A stretch of DNA of 64,000 nt from an uncultured Alphaproteobacteria bacterium (GTDB taxonomy: Bacteria; Pseudomonadota; Alphaproteobacteria; UBA11222), in the NCBI GenBank assembly GCA_947258435.1, contig CAMYID010000013.1, forward strand, positions 124,001 through 188,000, in the 5' to 3' direction. Position 1 is the first letter of the stretch. Every line of letters starts with the position of its first letter. Below, in pieces: positions 36,718 to 62,988 of this stretch. Made by a program: the position numbers and the translations under genes. The notes beneath the pieces were generated by a model, which saw only the letters and a list, made by a program, of their open reading frames with translations, made no database searches and was not told where the DNA came from.

Positions 36718-38643
36718 ATGCGCTTTTCACCTGCCTTTCTGGATGAATTGAAGTCGCGGCTGCGCGTATCGGATGTTGTCGGGCGCCGGGTAAAGCTGCA
36801 AAAGCGCGGCCGTGAATATGTCGGCCTCAGCCCGTTCAAAAGCGAAAAGACCCCCTCCTTCACTGTCAATGACGACAAGGGCTTTTATCACTGCTTTTCA
36901 AGTGGCGAGCATGGGGATGTCATCAGCTTCCTTATGGATGTGGAGGGGCTGTCTTTTACCGAGGCGATTGAGAAACTGGCCGGTGAAGCGGGGATGGAGC
37001 TGCCGAAACCGGATCGGTTCGATCAGGCGAAGGAAGAAAAAAGAAACAGCCTTTACGATGTCGTTCAGGCAGCGGCGGATTGGTTTGCGGCGCAACTGCG
37101 CAATAGTGCGGCGGCGGAACAGGCGCGGGACTATCTGCTGCGGCGCGGGCTTGATGCAGCGGCGATCGACGCGTTCGGCCTTGGTTTTGCGCCGGGCGAG
37201 CGGGCGGCATTGAAAACCGCCCTGATGCAGCAGGGATTTGAGGAAAAGATGCTGGTAGAGGCCGGCCTGGTCATCCGGCCTGACGATGGCCGGCCCGGCT
37301 ATGACAGGTTTCGCAATCGCATCATCTTCCCGATCACCGATATGCGCGGGCGGGTGATTGCATTTGGCGGACGGGCCCTTGATGCGGATGCGCAGGCCAA
37401 ATATCTCAATTCGCCCGAAACGCCGCTGTTCCACAAGGGGTCGGTGCTGTTCAACTTCCCCCGGGCGCGCGAAGCCGCGCGCAAATTCGCGCCGGTTATC
37501 GTTGTAGAAGGCTATATGGATGTCATTGCGCTGCATCAGGCGGGCTTTGAGGGGGCTGTCGCTCCACTCGGCACGGCTATGACGGAGGCACAGCTTGGCC
37601 TGCTATGGCGGGTAAGCGCTGAACCTGTTCTTGCATTTGACGGGGATGAAGCAGGAAGCCGCGCCGCCATGCGGGTTGTCGATCGGGCATTGCCAATTCT
37701 GAAACCGGGGAAATCGGTGCGTTTTTGTTTTCTGCCCGATGGCCTTGACCCTGATGATTTTATCCGCGACCGCGGTGCGGTGGGGTTTCGCGATCTGCTG
37801 AACCGCTCGCAGGGACTTGCCGACCTGCTGTGGCAGAAGGAGATTATCGGCCGCAGACTATCGACGCCGGAACAGAAGGCGGCTCTCGCGCAGCAATTCG
37901 AAACCGCTATTGAGCAGATCGAGGATAAGGTCGTTCGAGATTATTATCGTTTCGATTTCAAGGTGCGGCTGAGCGAATTTTTCTGGCGGACCGCGCGCCG
38001 CAAGGACAGCGCGTCGCCGCCGATTGCCACGACAGCGGGCAGTGAAGAGCTTGATGATCTGAATTATGAGCGCATGGTGCTGGGCCTGCTTGTCGAATAT
38101 CCCGATCTTGGCAATGCGCATATCGAGACGATAGAGCCTGACTGGTTTTCAAGCGACTGGCACGCGGAATTCTGCAATGCGTTGCATACGATCTATCTGG
38201 CGGGGGAAGTGGCCGACGTCATCGACATTTACGATAGGCTGCCGCCACGTTTCTACATGCTGCTCAATCAGGTGCATGGCGAGGAACGCGGTGGCGATGC
38301 GCCGGCCGCGCGGCGTGCCCGTGGCCATCGTCTGCATGCCCGTTTCCCGATGGTCGTGCAGCGTCCGCCCCATGCGGTGATTGAACGCTGCTTCCTGCAT
38401 TTCATGAATGGATTGCATATCAGAACATTGGAGAAGGAAAAAAATCAGACGCTGATACAGGCCGGAGACTGTCTGGCGCAGCCCGACAGACAGGAAGAAG
38501 CTGAAAAGCTGTATGCCCATGCAACAGAGCTGGAGCAGCTGCTTCTGGGGGAGCGTAAGAAATACACGGATGAAGAAATCAATATTCTTTACCTGATAGA
38601 AGAGTTTTCGCCGCACATTAAGGGCAGGCAGGCATCTTCATAA
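36718..38643 (+). CDS. dnaG: DNA primase
   Basis: A 641-residue primase that makes RNA primers at the replication fork. The N-terminal zinc-finger region (residues ~30-65) reads GLSPFKSEKTPSFTVNDDKGFYHCFSSGEHGD: two or three of the usual Cys/His ligands of the CHC2 motif are replaced, a change I associate with Alphaproteobacteria. The catalytic TOPRIM domain has VIVVEGYMDVIALHQAG with the metal-binding glutamate and LAFDGDEAGSRAAMR. The C-terminal helicase-binding region is less conserved. Its neighbours are yqeY upstream and rpoD downstream. Confidence 0.95.
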   Translation: MRFSPAFLDELKSRLRVSDVVGRRVKLQKRGREYVGLSPFKSEKTPSFTVNDDKGFYHCFSSGEHGDVISFLMDVEGLSFTEAIEKLAGEAGMELPKPDRFDQAKEEKRNSLYDVVQAAADWFAAQLRNSAAAEQARDYLLRRGLDAAAIDAFGLGFAPGERAALKTALMQQGFEEKMLVEAGLVIRPDDGRPGYDRFRNRIIFPITDMRGRVIAFGGRALDADAQAKYLNSPETPLFHKGSVLFNFPRAREAARKFAPVIVVEGYMDVIALHQAGFEGAVAPLGTAMTEAQLGLLWRVSAEPVLAFDGDEAGSRAAMRVVDRALPILKPGKSVRFCFLPDGLDPDDFIRDRGAVGFRDLLNRSQGLADLLWQKEIIGRRLSTPEQKAALAQQFETAIEQIEDKVVRDYYRFDFKVRLSEFFWRTARRKDSASPPIATTAGSEELDDLNYERMVLGLLVEYPDLGNAHIETIEPDWFSSDWHAEFCNALHTIYLAGEVADVIDIYDRLPPRFYMLLNQVHGEERGGDAPAARRARGHRLHARFPMVVQRPPHAVIERCFLHFMNGLHIRTLEKEKNQTLIQAGDCLAQPDRQEEAEKLYAHATELEQLLLGERKKYTDEEINILYLIEEFSPHIKGRQASS

Positions 38644-39136: not shown

Positions 39137-41161
39137 ATGGCATCAAAGTCTGTTCAGGCAAAGAAGAAAAAGGAAAAAGCGGAAGTGGCGGCTCAGGACG
39201 CGCCGCTGCTCGATTTGTCTGATCAGGCTGTAAAGCAGATGATTAAGAATGCCAAGAAGCGCGGCTATGTCACCTATGAAGAGGTCAATCAGGTGCTGCC
39301 GTCCGAGGAAGTTTCGCCGGAGCAGATCGAAGACACCATGGCGATGTTGTCTGAAATGGGCATCAATGTGGTCGATTCCGAAGACGGTGAAGAAAGCACC
39401 GACAACAAGGAGCTTGTTGCAACCGCTGCCAACGGTAATGCCGTTGCCAAGAAGGAAGGCAAATCTTCCGAGCTTGAACGGACAGATGATCCGGTGCGGA
39501 TGTATCTGCGTGAAATGGGCAGTGTCGAGCTGCTCTCCCGCGAGGGCGAAATCGCCATCGCCAAACGCATCGAGGCCGGTCGGGAGACAATGATCGCAGG
39601 GCTTTGTGAAAGCCCTGTTACCTTTCAGGCCATCATCGTCTGGCGTGAAGAGCTGAATGAAGAGCGGGTCCTGCTGCGCGATATCATTGATCTTGATGCG
39701 ACGCTTGGCAAAGGACCGGGCCAGCCCGGCAATGAAGCCGCCAATGTTCAAAATAACGCAACCCCTGGTGGCGCGGCAAAGGCGGAAACACCTGTAGCAG
39801 AAGCACCGGTAAAAGAGGAAAACAGCGCGGAAGGCGCAGCGTCTGAATCCGGCGCGTCCGATGATGACGATGAGGATGATGACGCCGACAACAATATGTC
39901 GCTGGCGGCGATGGAAGCATTGCTGCGTCCGCAGGTGCTTGAGATTTTTGACAAAATTGCCGCCAATTACAAGAAGCTGCACAAGCTTGAAGAAGCCCGC
40001 ATCGAAGGTAAGGTCAGCAATGATCCGCTAAGCACACAGCAGGAAAAACGTTATCTGAAGCTGCGCGATGATACCGTTACCCTGGTTAAGAGCCTGCATC
40101 TGAACAATAACCGGATCGAAGCGCTGGTTGATCTTATGTATTCGATTAACAAGCGTCTGATCGGGTTCGAGGGGCGTTTGCTGCGTCTTGCGGATTATCA
40201 TGGTGTGGACCGGGCGGAATTTCTTGATCAGTATCGCGGTCACGAGCTTGATGCGAACTGGACCCGCCGTGTCAGCCGTCTGAAAAGCAAAGGCTGGTCG
40301 GAATTCACCAAGAAAGAACGGGCGCAGATTAAGGAAATTCGCGAGGAAATTGCACAGATCAGCCAGGAAACCGGTCTGGAAATCAGCGAATTCCGCCGTA
40401 TCGTTCACACCGTGCAGAAGGGTGAGAAAGAAGCCCGCCTGGCAAAGAAGGAAATGGTCGAGGCGAATTTGCGTCTCGTGATCTCCATTGCCAAGAAATA
40501 CACCAATCGCGGTTTGCAGTTCCTCGATCTTATTCAGGAAGGCAATATCGGCCTGATGAAAGCGGTCGATAAATTCGAGTATCGCCGTGGTTACAAATTC
40601 TCGACCTATGCGACATGGTGGATCCGGCAGGCGATTACCCGCTCGATCGCCGATCAGGCGCGCACGATCCGAATTCCTGTGCATATGATCGAAACGATCA
40701 ACAAGCTGGTGCGCACATCGCGTCAGATGCTGCATGAAATCGGTCGCGAACCGACCCCGGAAGAACTTTCCGAAAAACTCTCCATGCCGCTTGAGAAGGT
40801 ACGTAAGGTTCTCAAGATCGCAAAAGAGCCTGTCAGCCTTGAAACACCCATCGGTGATGAAGAAGACAGCCATCTTGGCGACTTCATCGAGGACAAGAAT
40901 GCCGTTCTGCCGATTGATGCGGCTATTCAGTCGAATCTGCGTGAGACGACAACCCGGGTTCTGGCCTCTCTCACCCCGCGTGAGGAGCGTGTTCTGCGTA
41001 TGCGGTTCGGCATTGGTATGAATACAGACCATACGCTGGAAGAAGTCGGGCAGCAATTTTCCGTCACCCGCGAGCGTATTCGCCAGATCGAGGCGAAAGC
41101 CCTGCGCAAGCTCAAGCATCCCAGCCGTTCACGTAAACTGCGCAGCTTCCTCGACAACTGA
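39137..41161 (+). CDS. rpoD: RNA polymerase primary sigma factor RpoD
   Basis: A 674-residue sigma-70 of group 1. Region 1.1 ([24 protein letters not shown]) is present, as is 1.2 ([30 protein letters not shown]). The long non-conserved insert carries an acidic low-complexity block ([12 protein letters not shown]) and an Ala/Glu/Pro-rich stretch. Region 2 reads [59 protein letters not shown], region 3 [22 protein letters not shown], and region 4 [36 protein letters not shown]. It follows dnaG, as in the classic rpsU-dnaG-rpoD block, without rpsU here. Confidence 0.98.
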
Positions 41162-41303
41162 GCGGCGCCGTTTGTCCCGTTCGCACCCACCCCCGTTAAC
41201 ATCTTTGTAAACCCCGTTTGACTAACCTGCCGGCATGTTGTGCCGGCTGGCAGGGCCGCCACAGTTGGGCAAGTTGTTGTGTTGCGTAACGTGGAGACGG
41301 GGT

Positions 41304-43364
41304 ATGTGGGGATTTCTTGACAATCTGAAGATTCAGACGCGAATTTACCTGGTTGCATTGCTGCCGCTATTGGGCCTTGCAATGTTTTCCGGCATTGTAG
41401 TTTATAATCAATATGACACGCGCGCCAGAATATCGCGGTTTCAGGAGGTTGCGCCCGCGATCCCCGAAATTTCCGGTCTGGTACACGAACTGCAGAAAGA
41501 GCGCGGCAATTCCGCAGGTTTTATTGGCGCACGCGGCAACGGGCAGTTTGGCGATATGCTGGCAGCGCAGCGGCAGGCGACAGACACCGCGCTATCGCGT
41601 TTCAGCACACATATCGCGCATCTACAGATCGCCGATGGTGGCGAAAAATTCGTCGATTATGTCGGCCAGTCGCAGGCAATGCTTGCCAAATTAACCGATC
41701 GCCGCGGTCAGGTTGATGAGCTTGGCATTTCGGTCGGCGAGATGGCACGTTTCTATACAGCCACCATTGCGCGGTTATTGGACAGTATTGCCGCGACCAC
41801 CGCGTTTAATTCCGATCCCGCCATGGTCAAGATGATCGACGGCTATATTGCCTTCCTGCAAGCCAAGGAGCGTGCAGGGCTTGAGCGCGCAATGGGATCC
41901 AATGGTTTTGGCAGCGGAGCTTTTGCGCCGGCAGTTCATCGCCGTTTTATCTCCCTGATTGCCGAGCAGGAGGCGTTTTTGTCCGTGTTCCGCGCGAATG
42001 CAACGGCGGCGCAGCTTGCCCATTACAAGCAGATTGTCACCGGGCCGGATGTGGCGGCTGTTGTACAGATGCGTCAGCGTGCGATCGACAGCAAATATGG
42101 TGGCGATACGGGTGCGATAACCGGGCCGCAATGGTTTGAAACAATTACGGCCAAGATCAATTTGCTGAAGCAGGTTGAAGATCGGCTTGCGGAAGATATT
42201 CTGTCGACTTCCGAAGCGACCGGGCGTGCAAACACGCGGTTTCTGGCGATGACGGCGGGCTTCATCGTGCTTCTGCTCAGCATGATCTTTGTTGCATGCC
42301 GTATGATGGGCGCAAGGCTGACTGAACCGCTTGCCATCTTGCGGCAGAATATGCGTGCGCTCGCCGATGGCGATAATAGCGTGGATGTTGCGGGCGCCGA
42401 CCGGCGTGATGAAATCGGCGAGATGGCGCGTTCTGTCGTCATTTTTCAGGAAGCTGCAATCGAGAATGAACAGCTTGCGGCTGCCCGCGCGAAAGAGCAG
42501 GAAATCAGGAATCAGCGTACTGAACGGATTGCAACGCTTTGCAGCACGTTTGAGCGGAACGCGGAAGAAAGTCTTGGTTCCTTCGTCCATGCGTCATCAG
42601 AACTACGGACAAGCGCGGACAGGATGCGTGTTTCCGCCGACCGCAGTCAGGGTAAGTCGGCGGCGGTTGCATCCGCGGCGCAGCAGGCCTCTTCCAATGT
42701 GCAGTCTGTCGCGCAGGCATCGGAGGATCTGGCCCGCTCTATAGGCGCGGTTGGTCATCACGTCGATCAGTCGACGGAGATTTCTGGCAGCGCGATCACC
42801 CAGGCCAAGCGGGCAAGCGACACGATCACCAAACTGTCCGATGCGGCGCAGAAAATCGGTGCTGTTCTTGCGCTTATCCAGGACATTGCGGAGCAGACAA
42901 ACCTGCTTGCGCTGAACGCGACGATTGAGGCGGCGCGTGCGGGCGAAGCGGGTAAGGGGTTTGCCGTGGTTGCGACAGAAGTCAAAAATCTGGCGACCCA
43001 GACAGCGAATGCGACCGAGGAAATTTCGCATCAGATGGACAGCATGCAGTCGGTGACCGCAGAAACCGTCACGGTGATCAGTGCGATACATGAAACCATC
43101 GATCAGGTGGGTGAAAACGCGCAGTCAATTGCGGATGCGGTCAGCATGCAACGAAGCTCGACACTTGAAATCTCCGAAAATGCGCGACAGGTGGCTGCCG
43201 GTACCAGCCAGGTAACGGAAAATATTTCCGATGTCAGCGAAGCCGTGCTTGAAACAGGCGCGGTTGCCGAGCAGGTGTTCGGCGCGGCCGATGAACTGAG
43301 CAGCCAGTCCGAAAAGCTGCGTGCCGAGGTGGCAAGTTTCCTGCGCGATCTGAAAGCGGCTTGA
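41304..43364 (+). CDS. Methyl-accepting chemotaxis protein with NIT sensor
   Basis: A 686-residue transmembrane receptor. Order: N-terminal TM1 ([20 protein letters not shown]), a nitrate/nitrite-sensing (NIT) domain with [17 protein letters not shown] and [13 protein letters not shown]2 ([17 protein letters not shown]), a HAMP segment ([19 protein letters not shown]), and the cytoplasmic signalling hairpin with [32 protein letters not shown]. No CheR-docking pentapeptide ends the protein. The NIT domain suggests nitrate, nitrite or related ligands, but this is family inference. The ATG at 41304 has GGAGACGGGG upstream. No che operon is adjacent. Confidence 0.88.
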
Positions 43365-53712: not shown

Positions 53713-53947
53713 GAATTGTCCAAGGCCCGGCTCCGGAAGTCTTTCTGCAAGACACCCCGGCAGCATGATCTGGGCTTGATTTGGGATTATCCGGCGGATC
53801 AGCGGCCGGAAGAGCCACCCGGGGTTTCACCAGGTCCTTATGCTATCGATGCCGCATAGACGCGATTTCGTCGAAAATTGCAAGAACCGATGCACGCGCC
53901 GCGGATATTGTACAGGTCAAGACTCTGTTGATTGAATTTTGCCATAC

Positions 53948-53960
53948 TGTCACCGTGACA
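53948..53960. promoter_or_regulatory. 13-bp perfect palindrome upstream of putA
   Basis: TGTCAC-C-GTGACA is exactly palindromic around a single base and lies 30-42 bases before the putA ATG. This is a typical operator position. PutA here has no DNA-binding domain, so another factor would have to bind. Confidence 0.4.
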
Positions 53961-53989
53961 AGGCTGTTGATTTTGTCCCTGACGCGGAG

Positions 53990-56900
53990 ATGGTTATGTC
54001 GCCTGAAGTATTTTCCGCGGCGCTCATGCGCCCGGAAGAAGAGGCGCTTCAACCGCTGCTGAAACAGGCAGCGATGACAGCGGATGAACAGGGCCGCACG
54101 CAGGCTATCGCCACACAGATCGTCAGTCATATTCGGGCGCATCGCCGGCCCGCCGGAGGCATTGATGCATTTCTGCTTGAATATGATCTGTCGAGCGAGG
54201 AGGGCCTTGTTCTCATGTGTCTGGCGGAGGCATTGCTCCGGATACCCGATCATGAAACAGCCGATAGGCTGATTCGTGACAAGATCGCACCGGCTGATTG
54301 GGAACGGCATCTGGGCAAGTCTCAATCCTGGTTTGTCAACGCCTCCACCCTTGGGCTTATGCTGACTGGCCGGGTTGAACGGTTAGGACGCGATCAGGTC
54401 AACGATCTGCCGGGTTTTGTGAAACAGCTTGTGGCACGCACGGGCGAACCGGTGATCCGCCGGGCGCTTAACCATGCGACGCGGATTATGGGCAAGCAGT
54501 TCGTTCTCGGCCGCACGATAGAGGAGGGGATCAAGACCGCGCGCGAGGCTGGTATGCGTGGCTATCGCCATTCCTTCGATATGCTGGGTGAGGGCGCGCG
54601 TACGGCGGCTGACGCGGCGCGCTATTTTGCAGCCTATGCCAATGCGATCGAGGCGGTGGGCGCACCAGATAGCGCGCTTTTCGCGCCGGGGGTTTCGGTC
54701 AAGCTGTCCGCATTGCATCCCAGATTTGAATTTGCGCAGCGGGAGCGGGTGATGGCCGAGCTGGTGCCGCGTCTGCTCGATCTTGCGGCATTGGCGCATG
54801 AGCGTGAATTGTTGCTTACCGTCGATGCGGAAGAGGTGGCAAGGCTCGGCCTGAGCCTTGAGGTGTTTGAAGCGGTTTATTGCGCCCTCGGGCGGGGGCA
54901 GGGGTTCGGGCTTGCGGTGCAGGCCTACCAGAAACGCGCACCGGCTGTGCTGGAGCGGCTGGCGGCACTGGCAGAGTCGGGGGGACGCGCTGTTCCTGTA
55001 CGTCTCGTGAAGGGCGCCTATTGGGATAGTGAAATCAAATGGGCGCAAGAGCAGGGTTTTGCAGACTATCCCGTCTTTACACGCAAGGCCGGGACCGATG
55101 TCTCCTATCTTGCCTGCGCACGGCAGATGATTGCCGCGCAGCCGCATTTGCTGCCGCAATTCGCCACCCATAATGCACACACGGTTGCGGCAATCCTTGT
55201 TATGACCGGGGCAGATCGCGGCGCGGCGGAATGCGCGTTCGAGTTTCAGCGGCTGCATGGGATGGGCGAGCCGCTTTACGATCTGTTGCCCGAACTGGCA
55301 CATACGCAGGTGCCGTGCCGTATCTATGCGCCGGTCGGCAGTCATGAGGATCTGCTGGCGTATCTTGTCAGACGATTGCTTGAAAATGGCGCGAACAGTT
55401 CCTTTGTCAATCGGCTCAGCGATGATGCCGCCCCGATTGCGGAGGTAGTGCGCGACCCGGTCGAAACAGTACGCAGCTACAAATCCCTACCGCATCCGCA
55501 CATCCCGCTACCGGCCGATATTTTCGGGACGGAGCGGAAGAATTCCGATGGGATCGCGCTTTTCGATCCGGTGGCGCTTGATCCGTTGCTTGCGGCAATG
55601 AAGCAAAGCCTGGCCGGCGACGCGCCTGTTGCCGGCCCCGTGATCAGCGGTGCGGTGTTGGGCCGGAATGCCCACGCGGTTTGCGATCCGGCCTGTCAGG
55701 AGCGTCAGATCGGCCTCCTTGCTGAGGCCGAGGCTGCCCATGTCCGCATGGCGATTGCTACGGCGGAAAAAGCAGCGGGTGAATGGGATGCGCTTGGTGG
55801 CGCGGCGCGGGGGGCGATTTTACGCCGTGCGTCGATGCTGTTTGAGGCACATCGTCCCGCGTTGATGGCGCTTTGCGTGCGGGAGACGGGGAAAACAATT
55901 CCCGATGCGCTTGATGAATTGCGCGAGGCGGTGGACTTCCTGCGCTATTATGCGGCGCGGGCGGAGGCCGAATTCTCTGCTGCTGTGCCGCTGCCCGGCC
56001 CGACAGGGGAACAGAACAGCTTATCGATGCATGGTCGCGGGGTATTCGCCTGCATCAGCCCGTGGAATTTTCCGTTGGCGATCTTTACCGGGCAGGTTGC
56101 CGCAGCGCTTGCCGCGGGAAATGCGGTGATCGCCAAACCGGCGGAACAGGCAAGCCTTGTTGCATTTCGTGCGACGCAGTTGCTGCTTGAGGCAGGAGTG
56201 CCTGCCGAGGTTCTGCATCTGCTGCCGGGGCAGGGCACGCTATTGGGGGAGGTGATTACCGCTGAGCCGAGAGTTGCGGGGGTTGCCTTCACCGGGTCGA
56301 CCGGGACAGCACGGACCATAGCGCGCGGGCTTGCCAATCGCGAAGGGCCGATTGTGCCGCTGATCGCTGAAACCGGCGGGTTGAATGCGTTGATCGCCGA
56401 TTCGTCTGCGCTGGCGGAGCAGCTTGTGGATGACATTGTCGGTTCCGCATTCAACAGTGCGGGGCAGCGCTGCTCCGCCCTGCGGGTTTTGTTTTTGCAG
56501 GAAGATGGGGCGGAGCGGGTGTGCGACATGCTGGCGGGGGCGATGGCCGAACTGCGCCTCGGCGATCCGATGGAAATAGCAACCGATATCGGGCCGGTGA
56601 TCGATGATGGGGCGCAATCCATGTTGCGCGCGCATCAATCCTATCTCGACCGGGTCGGGCGTAAGCTTGCGCAGACGCCGCTACCCGAGGGGGCCGAGAT
56701 AGGGCATTTCTTTGCACCCTGCGCTTATGAGATTGACGGGATCGGGCGGTTGCAAGGGGAAAGGTTCGGCCCGATCCTGCATATTATCCGCTATGAGGGC
56801 GGACATCTGGACCGTGTCTGTGCGGCGATCAATGGTCTTGGTTTTGGGCTGACGGCAGGTGTTCATTCGCGCATTGACGACACCATTGCTGCGGTGGCCG

Positions 56901-57127
56901 CACAGCTTAAAGTGGGCAATCTGTATGTGAACCGCAATATGGTGGGGGCGGTTGTCGGCGCGCAGCCCTTCGGTGGTGAAGGGCTGTCGGGTACCGGTCC
57001 GAAAGCGGGCGGACCACGCTATCTGCACCGCTTTGCAACTGAACGGGCGGTTTCGCGGGATATAACCGCAGCAGGTGGCAATGCAGGCTTGCTGACCCTC
57101 GATACGCAGCAATCGTCTTCACAGTAA
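53990..57127 (+). CDS. putA: Bifunctional proline dehydrogenase / L-glutamate gamma-semialdehyde dehydrogenase
   Basis: A 1045-residue PutA that oxidises proline to glutamate with FAD and NAD+. The proline dehydrogenase half has GVSVKLSALHPRFEFAQRERVM, LLTVDAEEVARLGLSLEVFE, VRLVKGAYWDSEIKWAQ and FATHNAHTVAAILVM. The aldehyde dehydrogenase half starts near residue 560 and has NFPLAIFTGQVAAALAAGNAVIAKPAEQ, AETGGLNALIADSSALAEQ and the catalytic Cys828 in FNSAGQRCSALRVLF. No ribbon-helix-helix repressor domain precedes the dehydrogenase, and no extra C-terminal domain follows, so this is a short, non-regulatory PutA. Start ATG 53990 or 53996. Confidence 0.95.
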   Translation: MVMSPEVFSAALMRPEEEALQPLLKQAAMTADEQGRTQAIATQIVSHIRAHRRPAGGIDAFLLEYDLSSEEGLVLMCLAEALLRIPDHETADRLIRDKIAPADWERHLGKSQSWFVNASTLGLMLTGRVERLGRDQVNDLPGFVKQLVARTGEPVIRRALNHATRIMGKQFVLGRTIEEGIKTAREAGMRGYRHSFDMLGEGARTAADAARYFAAYANAIEAVGAPDSALFAPGVSVKLSALHPRFEFAQRERVMAELVPRLLDLAALAHERELLLTVDAEEVARLGLSLEVFEAVYCALGRGQGFGLAVQAYQKRAPAVLERLAALAESGGRAVPVRLVKGAYWDSEIKWAQEQGFADYPVFTRKAGTDVSYLACARQMIAAQPHLLPQFATHNAHTVAAILVMTGADRGAAECAFEFQRLHGMGEPLYDLLPELAHTQVPCRIYAPVGSHEDLLAYLVRRLLENGANSSFVNRLSDDAAPIAEVVRDPVETVRSYKSLPHPHIPLPADIFGTERKNSDGIALFDPVALDPLLAAMKQSLAGDAPVAGPVISGAVLGRNAHAVCDPACQERQIGLLAEAEAAHVRMAIATAEKAAGEWDALGGAARGAILRRASMLFEAHRPALMALCVRETGKTIPDALDELREAVDFLRYYAARAEAEFSAAVPLPGPTGEQNSLSMHGRGVFACISPWNFPLAIFTGQVAAALAAGNAVIAKPAEQASLVAFRATQLLLEAGVPAEVLHLLPGQGTLLGEVITAEPRVAGVAFTGSTGTARTIARGLANREGPIVPLIAETGGLNALIADSSALAEQLVDDIVGSAFNSAGQRCSALRVLFLQEDGAERVCDMLAGAMAELRLGDPMEIATDIGPVIDDGAQSMLRAHQSYLDRVGRKLAQTPLPEGAEIGHFFAPCAYEIDGIGRLQGERFGPILHIIRYEGGHLDRVCAAINGLGFGLTAGVHSRIDDTIAAVAAQLKVGNLYVNRNMVGAVVGAQPFGGEGLSGTGPKAGGPRYLHRFATERAVSRDITAAGGNAGLLTLDTQQSSSQ

Positions 57128-57143: not shown

Positions 57144-58640
57144 TCAGGGCTTGTTCATCATCTCATGAAACTCCTGCAGGGCAGGGCAGGGCTGCGGAGT
57201 CGGGGTATCGATTGCTTTGCCGACAAGATCGCCGCTGACAAACATGATGCCGATTGACAGGGCGAGTTGCAGAACCTGATTGCTGTCGACCTGTTCGACA
57301 CAGGGGATCAGGCGCTGTCGCTTGCAGTGGTTGATCAGATAGTTCAGCCTTTCGCGCAACAGGGGTTTATTTGTTGCGTTATTGCGCGGCAGGATCAGGC
57401 AAAGCGCGGCCAGACCGGTTTGTTCAAGGTTGCGATAATCCTTGTTGGTCAGGTTGACGGATGCGAATACATACCGGCTGAACGGTTTCAATGTTTCGAC
57501 CACGGACTGGACCCGCGATGACGGAGCGCCCTCCGGCAGTCCATAAATCTGGAACACAAGCATATCGCGGATTTTCTCGGGAATTTCCTTGCATAAATTG
57601 AGATAGCGGGTGCGTGACTGTGAGGTGGCCAGCGTTTCGTAGCTGATCGGCAGGACCATAAGATTGTTACTGTGCATCGCCAGCAGATCGATTGCCGCAT
57701 CCACACTTTTGTCGAGAATCTGAAAATCAAAATCGAGATATTCATCAACCTCAAGCATGTCGCGGGTCTGCAGATAACCTGATTTGCTGCCCATCTGCGG
57801 ATGCACGAAAGTCGGAACGGTCATATAGGCGATGATGTGGTTACGCTGTGCTTGCCAGGCGGGGCGGAATTTGTAGCTGCAAAAAGGCAGGCGCCGGGTG
57901 TCGATATCATCGATGGATTTTGAGGCAAGCTTATCGTGCCAGGATTGCCGTTCGGTGCCATTGTCCCCCTTCCTGTTCCCTTTCCCGTCTGCTGGTTGCG
58001 TGCGGGGTGTGGGGGTCGCAGGCGGCCTATCGAGTTCAACGATGCTGATATCATCGAACTTTACCGTTTCGAATGAGACGCCGCGCCCGACTTTTGCAAT
58101 TGCGGTGCGGATTGTCAGCGCGGACAATTCGATATCACCGATAAAATAGCTGTGGATTTCGCGCGCGATCTGAAATGATTTGAAACGCGCCTGCTGATCG
58201 CTCAGGGCGGCATGGCAGACAAGATATTCCACATCCGAATGACGCAGAAAGACATCCTGCGGCCCCAGATGCCGCGCGATGATCTGGCTGACCTTTTCAT
58301 GCACGCGGGTTTGCGCCGCTTCCCATTTTGCGCCCAATGCGGTTTTGACGGCTTCAAGCCCGACCAGATTGAGGCGACCGACCATGCATTCAGGTTGATC
58401 GCTGAGAACAGACAGAAGTTTCTTTTCGAAGGTCTCAAAATTGCCGGCCCGCTGTGCAACTTGTTTTGGCGCGTCGGTGACAGGGGGTTTCGCTGTTGCG
58501 GACGCCATCGTTCTGGCCGCAGCACTCAAAGTAGAATTCCGACTGTGCGGCACCGGGTTTGCAAAGGCTGACGGCTTGCGTCCGGACTCTTTTTCAGAAC
58601 CAAACAATAAAGCCAATAGCTTTGTGCGGATGCCAGCCAT
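57144..58640 (-). CDS. Degenerate GGDEF-EAL-like protein, paralogue of the next gene
   Basis: A 498-residue cytoplasmic protein from the ATG at 58640 (MAGIRTKLLALLFGS). Residues ~70-200 look like a GGDEF fold: FEKKLLSVLSDQPECMVGRLN, then DVFLRHSDVEYLVCHAALSDQQARFK, in which HSDVEY (134-139) occupies the GG(D/E)EF position. Residues ~250-480 look EAL-like: FCSYKFRPAWQAQRNHIIAYMTVP, MLVFQIYGLPEGAPSSRVQSVVETLKPF, and QRLIPCVEQVDSNQVLQLALSIGIMFVSGDLVGK near the end. Catalytic motifs are absent in both halves. It follows its paralogue by 257 bases. Function is inferred only as nucleotide-independent signalling or scaffolding. Confidence 0.6.
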   Translation of the reverse strand: MAGIRTKLLALLFGSEKESGRKPSAFANPVPHSRNSTLSAAARTMASATAKPPVTDAPKQVAQRAGNFETFEKKLLSVLSDQPECMVGRLNLVGLEAVKTALGAKWEAAQTRVHEKVSQIIARHLGPQDVFLRHSDVEYLVCHAALSDQQARFKSFQIAREIHSYFIGDIELSALTIRTAIAKVGRGVSFETVKFDDISIVELDRPPATPTPRTQPADGKGNRKGDNGTERQSWHDKLASKSIDDIDTRRLPFCSYKFRPAWQAQRNHIIAYMTVPTFVHPQMGSKSGYLQTRDMLEVDEYLDFDFQILDKSVDAAIDLLAMHSNNLMVLPISYETLATSQSRTRYLNLCKEIPEKIRDMLVFQIYGLPEGAPSSRVQSVVETLKPFSRYVFASVNLTNKDYRNLEQTGLAALCLILPRNNATNKPLLRERLNYLINHCKRQRLIPCVEQVDSNQVLQLALSIGIMFVSGDLVGKAIDTPTPQPCPALQEFHEMMNKP

Positions 58641-58897
58641 TCCAGTCTCGCCGCAATTATCGTGCGCATTCAAAAATGCGCGTAAAAAGAGCAATATTAG
58701 TAAAATACAATTATTAATGATGTGTTGCCGAAGCGGCTGGGCTTGGGGTGCATCCAGAACGCGGCTAGCCCGAAACCATTCCGCAGCCTCAATGGGATGC
58801 CGCGGGCAGTTTCATGGGGCACACAAGCCTGGCGGCGGGGGTAGTGTGTCTGGAGGGGATCAGGTCAGGGCGGGGCTGGGCTGCCGTTGGCTCAGCC

Positions 58898-60442
58898 TTA
58901 CGCGGAAGCCGAAATATCTGAACTAGCGGTAGTATTTTGCGCCACAATGTCCTTGAAGGTGCAGCGCGCCATATGACCGGGTGCAAAGCTGGGTTTGCTG
59001 ATGACATCGCCGGCAATGAAGAATACGCCCGCGTCCACGCCCAGTTTCAGCATGGCAATATTTGAGACCTCTTCCAGGCAGGGAATCATTTCGGTCTTTT
59101 TGCATTGCATGACAAGTTGCAGCAGCCGCTTGGAGATAGCAGACGGGTCGAGTGCACTGAAATTTTTGGGTGGTATGAGGCAAATTGCGTCCAGACCGGT
59201 ATTTTCGAAGTTCCGGTAGTTCTGCTTTTCAATGCTGACGGTGACGAAAATATGCCGGCAGAAAGGCTTAAGTGTCTGGACAACGCTTTGTACGCGGCTG
59301 GAGGGGGCACCGTCGGGCAGATCGTAAATCTGAAATACAATCATTTCGCGGATTTTCGCCGGAACCTGCCGGCAGATCGCCAGATATTTTTCACGCAGGC
59401 GCGGTGAAGTCGCGGTCTCGAAGTCAAGCGGAATGACCACCAGCGTCATAAACAGATTTGAGATCAGTTCCGCGCAGACATCTACGGCTTCGGCAAGAAT
59501 CAGAAAATCAAGCGCATGCCGTTCATCTTCTTTCAGAATATTGCGCGTTTGCAGATAGCCGGTGCGCTCACCCAGTAATTCATGGCTGAAGCGTGGCAAA
59601 ATATGATGGGCAATCAGAACATTCTGTTTGCTGTGCCAGACGCTGCGGAACAGGAAGTCGCAGTAATCAAGTCGGTTGACCGCACTCAGTTCGGTAATTG
59701 TCGAGCTTAATCCGATATTTGCAATATCGATGCTGTTGGCGACAGGCTGTCTTGCCGACACCGGCTCCGCTTCTGCCTGCACGGCTTGTTGTAGTTGTTT
59801 CTTGAGCTCTTCCTCATGATTGATATCGTCAAATGTCAGCTCTTCGAATTTGACGCTGCCATCGGCGCTGGCGACGGCAGTCCGAATAGTGATTTTTTCC
59901 AGTTCCGCCGTGCCTAGGAAAAATGACAGAATTTCCTGTGCAATCTGAATTGACTTGAGACGTGCCTGCTGATCGCTGAGGTTTGCATGACATACCATGT
60001 ACTCCACTTCATTATGCCGGACAAAAATATCGTCCTTGGCCAGGTTCTTGCGCAGAATGCTTTGAACCTTTTCATGGACGCGTTCCTGCACATTTTCCCA
60101 GCGGGTGCCGAGCGCCTCTTTCAACTGATGTAATCCGATCAGGTTGAGCCGCCCGATCATGCAGGCCGGTTGCGTGGCCAGAAGCCCCAGAAGGTGTGTT
60201 TCAAATCCTTCTTTTGTTACCTGCTTATCGATGTTGTTGATGTCCGACGGCGGCGTTGCGGCGGTCTTTTGCGGCAGCTCGATAGATTGGGTGGCAGGCT
60301 GTGCAGCCTTCTGCGCCGGCGGTTTTTTTGCTGCTGAGCTGGTTTTGTCACGATGCCGGGTTACACTGTCAGGAAAAATTTCCTCTGCCTTGCTGTCATT
60401 GCCGAAAATATAGTCCAGCACTTTCGTACGTAGGTTGTTCAT
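58898..60442 (-). CDS. Degenerate GGDEF-EAL-like protein
   Basis: A 514-residue cytoplasmic protein, start MNNLRTKVLDYIFGND, which parallels the N-terminus of the neighbouring paralogue. Residues ~80-205 are GGDEF-like with HNEVEY (143-148) in place of the signature, within IFVRHNEVEYMVCHANLSDQQARLKSIQIAQEI. A charged, disordered linker (about 205-255) follows. Residues ~258-485 resemble an EAL domain whose EAL motif and metal ligands are missing; it keeps the EGVET-like EMIPCLEEVSNIAMLKLGVDAGVFFIAGDVISKP ending. It is probably the first gene of the pair. It cannot be assigned a cellular role. Confidence 0.6.
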   Translation of the reverse strand: MNNLRTKVLDYIFGNDSKAEEIFPDSVTRHRDKTSSAAKKPPAQKAAQPATQSIELPQKTAATPPSDINNIDKQVTKEGFETHLLGLLATQPACMIGRLNLIGLHQLKEALGTRWENVQERVHEKVQSILRKNLAKDDIFVRHNEVEYMVCHANLSDQQARLKSIQIAQEILSFFLGTAELEKITIRTAVASADGSVKFEELTFDDINHEEELKKQLQQAVQAEAEPVSARQPVANSIDIANIGLSSTITELSAVNRLDYCDFLFRSVWHSKQNVLIAHHILPRFSHELLGERTGYLQTRNILKEDERHALDFLILAEAVDVCAELISNLFMTLVVIPLDFETATSPRLREKYLAICRQVPAKIREMIVFQIYDLPDGAPSSRVQSVVQTLKPFCRHIFVTVSIEKQNYRNFENTGLDAICLIPPKNFSALDPSAISKRLLQLVMQCKKTEMIPCLEEVSNIAMLKLGVDAGVFFIAGDVISKPSFAPGHMARCTFKDIVAQNTTASSDISASA

Positions 60443-60579: not shown

Positions 60580-60608
60580 TTGACTGGCAGGCGGGGGCCG
60601 GTCACAAT
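60580..60608 (+). promoter_or_regulatory. Sigma-70-type promoter of the first alcohol dehydrogenase
   Basis: TTGACT and CACAAT are separated by exactly 17 bases. The predicted transcript start would be near 60615, about 37 bases before the ATG at 60652, with GCAGGGAG as ribosome site. Confidence 0.55.
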
Positions 60609-60651
60609 CGAAACAACTAATTCAGATGCTTTACTGCAGGGAGAAATACCT

Positions 60652-61737
60652 ATGAAAGCGGCCGTTCTGCGCGAGGCGGGCAAGCCTCTTACCATTGAAA
60701 ATGTCAATATCAGCAAGCCCGGTCCCCGCGAAGTTCTGATCCGGACGGCCGCCGCTGGCGTTTGTCACAGTGATCTGCATTTTGCCGACGGGCTTTATCC
60801 TTACATGTTGCCAGCTGTGCTCGGTCACGAATCGGCCGGTGTGGTCGAACAGGTTGGCTCCGATGTGACCTATGTCCAGCCCGGCGACCATGTGATTACC
60901 TGCCTGTCGGTATTCTGCGGTCATTGCGAACATTGTCTGACCGGCCATATGAGCCGTTGCCAGAGCCCCGAAGTGCAGCGTGATCCGGAGGCGGAACCCC
61001 GTCTGAGCCAGACGGATAGCGCGATGTTCCAGTTTATCAATCTGTCCTCCTATGCCGAACAGATGCTGGTGCATGAGCATGCCATCGTGAAAATCCGCAA
61101 GGATATGCCGCTTGATCGGGCTGCGGTTATCGGCTGTGCGGTGACGACCGGCGTGGGTGCGGTGTTCCACACCGCCGCTGTTGAGCCTGGTTCGACAGTT
61201 GCGGTGATCGGCTGCGGCGGCATCGGCCTGAGTGCGGTCAATGGCGCGGCGATTGCAGGCGCAGGCCGGGTTATTGCGATCGATATGGTCGGTTCCAAGC
61301 TCAATCTGGCGAAAGAGTTCGGTGCGACCGATGTGATCGATGCAAGCGAAGGCAATGTGGTTGAGCAGGTGCGTGAGCTCACCGGTGGCGGCGTGCATTA
61401 CAGCTTTGAGGCTATCGGTCTCAAGCAGACGGCGGAGCAAGCCTTCCAGATGTGCAGAACCGGCGGCACCGCAACCGTTATCGGTATGATTCCGGTTGGC
61501 ACTATGGTCGAAATCCATGGCGCTGAATTGCTTCAGGAGAAGAAACTTCAGGGTTCCATGATGGGTTCGAACCGGTCGCGCGTCGATATGCCGCGCTTTG
61601 TGGATTTCTATATGGACGGCAAGCTGAAGCTGGACGAAATGATTTCAGACCGCATCGGTCTTGAGGATATTAACGGTGCGTTCGATAATCTGCGTTCGGG
61701 CAGTGTGGCGCGGCAGGTCATCACATTCGACCATTAA
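60652..61737 (+). CDS. Zinc-dependent alcohol dehydrogenase (copy 1)
   Basis: A 361-residue medium-chain dehydrogenase. The catalytic zinc site includes Cys38 (GVCHSD), His59 and Glu60 (GHESAG), and probably Cys162; structural zinc is held by Cys89, Cys92, Cys95 and Cys103 (FCGHCEHCLTGHMSRC). The NAD-binding loop is GCGGIG at 187-192. The pattern resembles the class III / NDMA-dependent alcohol dehydrogenase group. The start at 60652 was chosen by the family N-terminus MKAAVL and the ribosome site. A terminator follows, so it may be a single-gene transcript. The substrate is unknown. Confidence 0.92.
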   Translation: MKAAVLREAGKPLTIENVNISKPGPREVLIRTAAAGVCHSDLHFADGLYPYMLPAVLGHESAGVVEQVGSDVTYVQPGDHVITCLSVFCGHCEHCLTGHMSRCQSPEVQRDPEAEPRLSQTDSAMFQFINLSSYAEQMLVHEHAIVKIRKDMPLDRAAVIGCAVTTGVGAVFHTAAVEPGSTVAVIGCGGIGLSAVNGAAIAGAGRVIAIDMVGSKLNLAKEFGATDVIDASEGNVVEQVRELTGGGVHYSFEAIGLKQTAEQAFQMCRTGGTATVIGMIPVGTMVEIHGAELLQEKKLQGSMMGSNRSRVDMPRFVDFYMDGKLKLDEMISDRIGLEDINGAFDNLRSGSVARQVITFDH

Positions 61738-61902: not shown

Positions 61903-62988
61903 ATGAAAGCCGCCGTATTGCATGAAGTAAAAACACCGCTTCAGATCGAGGATGTTCAAATTTCAAAACCCGGACCGCGCGAAGTGCTGGTACGGACTTC
62001 AGCTGTTGGTGTATGCCACAGTGATCTGCATATTGCTGACGGTCATTATCCGTTCCGGCTGCCTGCCGTGCTGGGCCATGAAGCGGCCGGTATTGTGGAG
62101 CAGGTGGGGTCTGACGTGACCTATGTGAAGCCGGGCGATCACGTGATCACCTGCCTGTCGGTATTTTGCGGCCATTGCGATCATTGCCTGACCGGCCATA
62201 TGGCCCGCTGCGGCAGCCGCGAAACCCAGCGGACAAAGGAAGAAGAGCCCCGGCTGATGCTGAACGGCAGATATATGACGCAGTTCGCAAGCCTTTCATC
62301 TTATGCCGAGCAGATGCTGGTGCATGAGCATGCTATCGTGAAAGTGCGTGAGGATATGCCGCTTGATCGGGCGGCACTGATCGGGTGCGGTGTGATGACC
62401 GGTGCTGGGGCTGCAATTAACACCGCAAAGGTTGAGCCGGGCTCGACGGTGGCAGTCATTGGCTGCGGCGGCATCGGGCTGAGCGCCATTAACGGTGCGG
62501 CAATTGCCGGCGCGGGCCGGATTATCGCGATCGATATGGTCGGTTCCAAACTCAACCTTGCAAAACAGTTCGGCGCAACCGATGTGATCAACGCAAAAGA
62601 CGGCAATGTGGTCGAGCAGGTGCGCGAGCTGACAGGCGGCGGCGTGCATTACAGCTTCGAGGCGATCGGTCTCAAGCAAACGGCCGAAGATGCATTCAAG
62701 ATGGTACGCACAGGTGGCGTTGCGACGGTCATCGGCATGATCCCGGTCGGCACGATGGTCGAAGTGCATGGCGCGGAACTGCTGCAGGAGAAAAAGCTGC
62801 AGGGTTCGATGATGGGGTCGAACCGTTTCCGCGTCGATATGCCCCGGCTGGTCGACTTCTATATGTCGGGCAAGCTCAAGCTTGACGAGATGATCTCCGA
62901 TCACATCAAGCTTGAGGACATCAATCAGGCATTTGATAATCTGCGTACCGGTGAAGTGGCCCGCCAGGTCATCATGATGGATAGCTGA
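61903..62988 (+). CDS. Zinc-dependent alcohol dehydrogenase (copy 2)
   Basis: A 361-residue close paralogue of the first copy, aligning without gaps through nearly the whole length. The zinc ligands (Cys38, His59, Glu60, Cys89, Cys92, Cys95, Cys103, Cys162) and the nucleotide loop GCGGIG are all kept. Differences cluster in the substrate-facing segment around residues 104-131. That suggests different substrate preference rather than a dead duplicate. It has its own ribosome site (CAGGGAGGAA). Substrate unknown. Confidence 0.92.
   Translation: MKAAVLHEVKTPLQIEDVQISKPGPREVLVRTSAVGVCHSDLHIADGHYPFRLPAVLGHEAAGIVEQVGSDVTYVKPGDHVITCLSVFCGHCDHCLTGHMARCGSRETQRTKEEEPRLMLNGRYMTQFASLSSYAEQMLVHEHAIVKVREDMPLDRAALIGCGVMTGAGAAINTAKVEPGSTVAVIGCGGIGLSAINGAAIAGAGRIIAIDMVGSKLNLAKQFGATDVINAKDGNVVEQVRELTGGGVHYSFEAIGLKQTAEDAFKMVRTGGVATVIGMIPVGTMVEVHGAELLQEKKLQGSMMGSNRFRVDMPRLVDFYMSGKLKLDEMISDHIKLEDINQAFDNLRTGEVARQVIMMDS

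Follow-up and report, generated by a model that had tools for sequence, protein, structure and literature searches.

Genes A and B, adjacent on the minus strand of the window (the whole analysed stretch of 64,000 nucleotides from an uncultured alphaproteobacterium), encode paralogous proteins that combine a modelled GGDEF-EAL fold with the loss of the cyclase, phosphodiesterase and ExLxR motifs, and both copies have been kept by purifying selection. They belong to an alphaproteobacterial family for which we found no existing model or name and no description in the open-licence literature, and profile searches did not place them in an already characterised family, in line with the initial annotation, which had proposed an undescribed signalling module. 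Probably, A and B serve as cytoplasmic signalling adaptors that act through protein contacts.

The family largely escapes the two Pfam models, GGDEF and EAL, on which counts of c-di-GMP proteins rest: with E values up to 1, any EAL match was obtained for 14 of 42 members and any GGDEF match for 8 of 42. The family is therefore probably missing from published c-di-GMP inventories. If our reading is true, many alphaproteobacteria hold uncounted dead GGDEF-EAL adaptors, and the A/B pair would be a tractable test of how pseudoenzymes leave the messenger while retaining the fold.

The gene pair, its setting and its history

The initial annotation had described two adjacent same-strand paralogues with shared sequence blocks. 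The open reading frames bear this out (Table 1); the quoted blocks are present, and the two proteins are 40% identical over 496 aligned columns (E 4e-134, pairwise alignment). On the minus strand B is transcribed first, followed by A. In the list of open reading frames, the A frame reaches TTG 58694 (57144-58694(-), 516 aa). We regard ATG 58640 (498 aa, 'MAGIRTKLLALLFG') as the likelier start because 'MAGIRTKLLALLFG' aligns with 'MNNLRTKVLDYIFG' of B, and the gap from B to A would therefore measure 257 nt. Promoter and terminator scans of this gap did not exceed the level of shuffled sequences and gave no match above chance.

Table 1. Positions of the gene pair, its protein regions and the flanking genes in the window
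Feature	Position	Strand	Description and basis
Gene B (upstream)	58898..60442	-	514-aa degenerate GGDEF-EAL protein; ORF, AlphaFold, Foldseek, dN/dS
Gene A (downstream)	57144..58640	-	498-aa paralogue of B; ORF, AlphaFold, Foldseek, dN/dS
Intergenic gap B to A	58641..58897	-	257 nt, poorly conserved
Pseudo-GGDEF half of B	59831..60205	-	Signature HNEVEY; profile A2 matches
Pseudo-GGDEF half of A	58056..58430	-	Signature HSDVEY; aligned region included in A2
Pseudo-EAL half of B	58901..59683	-	HILPR at ExLxR position; profile A3, structural Z
Pseudo-EAL half of A	57147..57902	-	MTVPT at ExLxR position; profile A3, weak Pfam EAL E 0.007
N-terminal helix of B	60400..60442	-	Short, basic, hydrophobic (LRTKVLDYIFG); disordered linker follows
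putA	53939-57127	+	Convergent to pair; named by sequence inspection
Two tandem zinc-type alcohol dehydrogenase (ADH) genes	60580-61737, 61903-62988	+	Divergent from pair; named by sequence inspection

The pair is flanked by metabolic genes (ADH, putA), without signalling genes alongside, a setting that speaks against the adaptor reading. The order ADH, ADH, pair, putA-like is also found in G001, an uncultured alphaproteobacterial MAG and the sole other genome of the genus. The two ADH genes are closely alike. Elsewhere in the window, 41235-43361 (+) encodes a methyl-accepting chemotaxis protein carrying a NIT domain (nitrate/nitrite sensing). It lies directly after the housekeeping sigma-70 gene (39137-41158) and dnaG (36718-38640).

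Between the two congeneric species, dN/dS was 0.12 for A and 0.10 for B, figures that are approximate because dS is near saturation, and the folded cores are mostly 75-92% identical. Purifying selection acts on A as well as on B, and together with the conserved gene order and flanks this agrees with the earlier proposal that selection has kept both copies. The loss of the catalytic motifs might suggest that A, B or the pair of them is a non-functional relic in decay; in view of the low dN/dS, the similarity of the cores, the open frames and the conserved synteny, we consider this extremely improbable. A quick maximum-likelihood tree places the A copies of the two species together, and likewise the B copies; the duplication is therefore older than the species split. 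Further adjacent pairs occur head to tail in G314 and G381 and tail to tail in G215. As these fall in other clades of the tree, adjacent pairs arose several times independently. The initial annotation had suggested a genome survey for conservation of the tandem pair. The pair did not prove to be the conserved unit: in most genomes the gene occurs on its own, and the pairs represent repeated lineage-specific duplications.

Fold and detection

With A and B as single sequences, Pfam and NCBIfam gave nothing above cut-off; below it, A showed a Pfam EAL fragment (E 0.007), whereas B showed none. A single-sequence PDB search returned designed helical proteins only, which were discarded as chance matches, and a degenerate-pattern scan of genome contigs yielded one relative, in the congeneric MAG. 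The family profile was built from a 42-row alignment of homologues from other alphaproteobacterial genomes. Searched against the PDB, it matched FimX with an E value of 1e-17, as well as LapD, MorA and other GGDEF-EAL structures. The profile of the N-terminal half alone (A2) found the cyclases DosC (6.5e-5) and 3ign (5.5e-5), and that of the C-terminal half alone (A3) found the FimX EAL domain (E 3.7e-9). Since the whole profile finds FimX and each half by itself finds GGDEF or EAL structures, the resemblance is not due to chance.

The AlphaFold check suggested in the initial annotation placed both halves of both proteins in the GGDEF-EAL fold; an unrelated fold did not turn up. The pLDDT was 82 for B and 80 for A; a pTM of 0.56 means that the modelling does not establish how the two halves are placed relative to each other. 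Foldseek matched the B model to LapD (top), MorA and FimX and the A model to MorA and LapD (rank 2), with E values of about 1e-12 to 1e-13 for both models against the LapD, MorA and PA0575 GGDEF-EAL structures. The full models align to GGDEF-EAL structures from residue 72 onward. In structural superposition, the EAL half of B matched FimX, LapD and PdeA at Z scores of about 21-22 over ~230 residues. Because of the matches to LapD, MorA and FimX, we assign A and B a degenerate GGDEF-EAL fold. Profile and model similarity support the GGDEF domain fold (PF00990), although single-sequence Pfam misses it; similarly, profile A3 and a Z score of about 22 support the EAL domain fold (PF00563), although Pfam stays below cut-off. 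Apart from a disordered N-terminal stretch, the models consist of the GGDEF, linker and EAL regions alone. Pfam found no HAMP domain in A or B, and transmembrane and periplasmic parts are absent from the models.

Catalytic and ligand-binding sites

Functional sites of 84 members were scored against FimX in a low-identity alignment, which underlies the site losses given below. None of the 84 members has GG[DE]EF; the window proteins read HSDVEY (A) and HNEVEY (B), the very signatures that had been reported for a GGDEF-like N-terminal half. Neither protein is thus expected to be an active diguanylate cyclase. The description of the C-terminal half as EAL-like without metal-binding motifs was equally accurate, as the EAL, NxxE, DDFG and K motifs are absent from A and B. 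Across the family, the EAL glutamate is kept in 5/81 members, the NxS asparagine in 6/84, the two DDFG aspartates in 0/84 and 1/84, the catalytic lysine in 2/83 and the QG glutamine in 6/76. No member retains more than three of the eight residues of the EAL catalytic set (EAL glutamate, N, E, DD, K, E, Q), and A and B retain one each. Judged by these residues, A, B and all 84 members would be inactive as EAL phosphodiesterases. The ending said to resemble the EGVET loop echoes it only weakly (CVEQVDS / CLEEVSN).

A dead EAL domain can still serve as a receptor that binds c-di-GMP and signals to a partner, as in FimX and LapD, and the initial annotation had named c-di-GMP binding among the possible roles. 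Among solved structures, FimX and LapD come nearest, and canonical GGDEF genes occur in all 65 genomes counted as family carriers. Moreover, B keeps the final arginine of the motif (HILPR), aligned with LapD R450, which lies at the centre of the c-di-GMP binding site (PMC3032553). However, ExLxR, which has been described as deciding whether an inactive EAL domain binds c-di-GMP (PMC10333796), is present in 0/84 members. The arginine at this position is lost in 71/81 members, A having a threonine there (MTVPT), and 74/80 lack the Q of FQP. The inhibitory RxxD site ahead of the signature, through which GGDEF domains of the PopA/PelD kind act as receptors, is found in only 7/84 members and in neither window protein (GPQD, AKDD; the arginine is missing in A and B), so that this type of binding is not predicted for the pair either. 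Because no member keeps ExLxR, c-di-GMP binding in the EAL pocket is disfavoured, and a receptor of the FimX/LapD kind appears unlikely. With its one arginine at the ExLxR position, B may nevertheless bind a nucleotide weakly or in an altered way.

Strongly conserved family positions (profile numbering) are G68, W71, D94, D257, R295, R328 and G421. Conservation of the family-specific W71, R295 and R328 at 67-92%, with different residues in FimX at R295 and R328, might indicate that the remodelled pockets hold a different small ligand. A protein interface would also account for this conservation, and we rate another ligand as rather improbable.

The genome of the pair (G000) encodes a second dead EAL protein of unrelated appearance (contig C5:18670-19185, L168). 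It matches Pfam EAL with E 1.6e-5, below cut-off, and a GGDEF-like stretch, MWNNDLIVTVKG, precedes. As the family profile does not detect it, this protein was ruled out as a family member.

Distribution, associations and known systems

Profile matches at 1e-15 were obtained in 82 of 385 alphaproteobacterial genomes. The weakest of these matches may represent ordinary GGDEF-EAL proteins; 65 genomes (about 17%) have strong ones, scoring about 100 bits or higher. In a phylum sample whose composition outside the class is not listed, all family matches were in Alphaproteobacteria. Members are usually single genes; among ten long members scanned, four carry fused receiver domains and five PAS domains. 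Response regulators were immediate neighbours in 8/93 cases compared with 2/90 for genes 2.5-6 kb away, and HATPase (histidine kinase ATPase) domains in 7/93 compared with at most 1/90, counts that are noisy because genes were called by simple longest ORF. Clustering of the neighbours revealed no fixed partner gene, the largest cluster reflecting chaining of PAS, kinase and receiver domains. On account of the receiver and PAS fusions and the neighbouring kinases, the family looks like an output module. Many relatives would serve as output for receiver or PAS inputs or act next to histidine kinases. In two related genomes, a stand-alone Aer-type PAS protein (L053:6531-7097 (-), L070:5614-6159 (-)) is encoded divergently from the family gene, then a methyl-accepting-type gene (judged by eye).

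FliG is encoded in 59/65 genomes with the family and in 164/320 without it. When the comparison was limited to GGDEF-carrying genomes no smaller than 2.8 Mb, the figures were 58/64 and 68/104 (p 2e-4), and with one genome per taxonomic family the median p was 0.02. Both associations, with neighbouring genes and with flagella, are of modest size and could in part be an effect of lifestyle and lineage. From association, the proteins are probably active in motility or surface behaviour. In G112, a complete fliG-like gene (L085:7843-8880 (+)) lies divergent from a family member, with a second FliG elsewhere in that genome.

The N-terminal helix of B has a counterpart in A (IRTKLLALLFG). As an amphipathic motif of the whole family it was rejected: for most members the hydrophobic moments were no better than those of shuffled sequences, and a regular expression that recovered 20/34 members of its set of origin (5.8 expected) recovered 9/28 held-out members (5.3 expected). 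Given this weak held-out recovery, we claim the helix for the core subfamily only. Conceivably, the helix and the flexible linker tether A and B to the membrane or to a partner, while the folded halves would bind partner proteins, by analogy with YdiV or FimX. After the duplication, A and B might also have come to form a hetero-oligomer. A broader model, which we put forward tentatively and hold to be possible at best, is that this class-wide, doubly dead family forms a messenger-independent branch of signalling, in which two-component or PAS inputs would pass through the pseudoenzyme to protein contacts on the motility or surface machinery, and duplications would give rise to interacting pairs.

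Homologues in Azospirillum lipoferum 4B and Azospirillum sp. B510 (L126:6926-8218, L127:6932-8221) adjoin [NiFe]-hydrogenase and maturation genes. The products AZOLI_RS21860 and AZL_RS25540, annotated 'hypothetical protein', are matched by a family member with 31-33% identity over 85%; these differ from the window pair in being single genes beside hydrogenase genes. In a published Azospirillum GGDEF/EAL survey, the passages located by term search concern only hybrids whose EAL sites are intact (PMC5845226).

Among the known systems, E. coli CsrD reportedly fails to bind c-di-GMP (PMC10333796). Like A and B, it joins a dead GGDEF to a dead EAL domain, and an RNA-linked regulator of this kind, controlling RNA turnover, would have the same architecture. 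The CsrD signature is HRSDF, which HSDVEY and HNEVEY superficially recall. On the other hand, CsrD is bound to the membrane, has GAPES4 and HAMP parts and acts on CsrB/CsrC RNA, A and B are without a HAMP or transmembrane part, and we found nothing in the sequences to link them to CsrD; we judge a CsrD-like role very unlikely. Both domains of LapD are dead as well; it is a transmembrane protein with HAMP and periplasmic domains that binds c-di-GMP (PMC3032553), and A and B differ in that such parts are not seen in them. YdiV and STM1697 have an EAL fold but neither catalyse a reaction nor bind c-di-GMP, and act on flagellar regulators through protein contacts (PMC10333796). They share the non-catalytic EAL fold with A and B and differ in being EAL only and gammaproteobacterial, with no close sequence relation seen. 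Degenerate GGDEF-EAL signalling proteins are already known as a kind; what is new is a family without even ExLxR, which domain libraries have missed. The best PDB profile match and a close structural match is FimX of Pseudomonas and Xanthomonas, likewise a non-enzymatic protein of degenerate GGDEF and degenerate EAL domains. FimX is listed as a c-di-GMP binder through ExLxR (PMC10333796), a motif that no A/B family member has, and it serves type IV pili.
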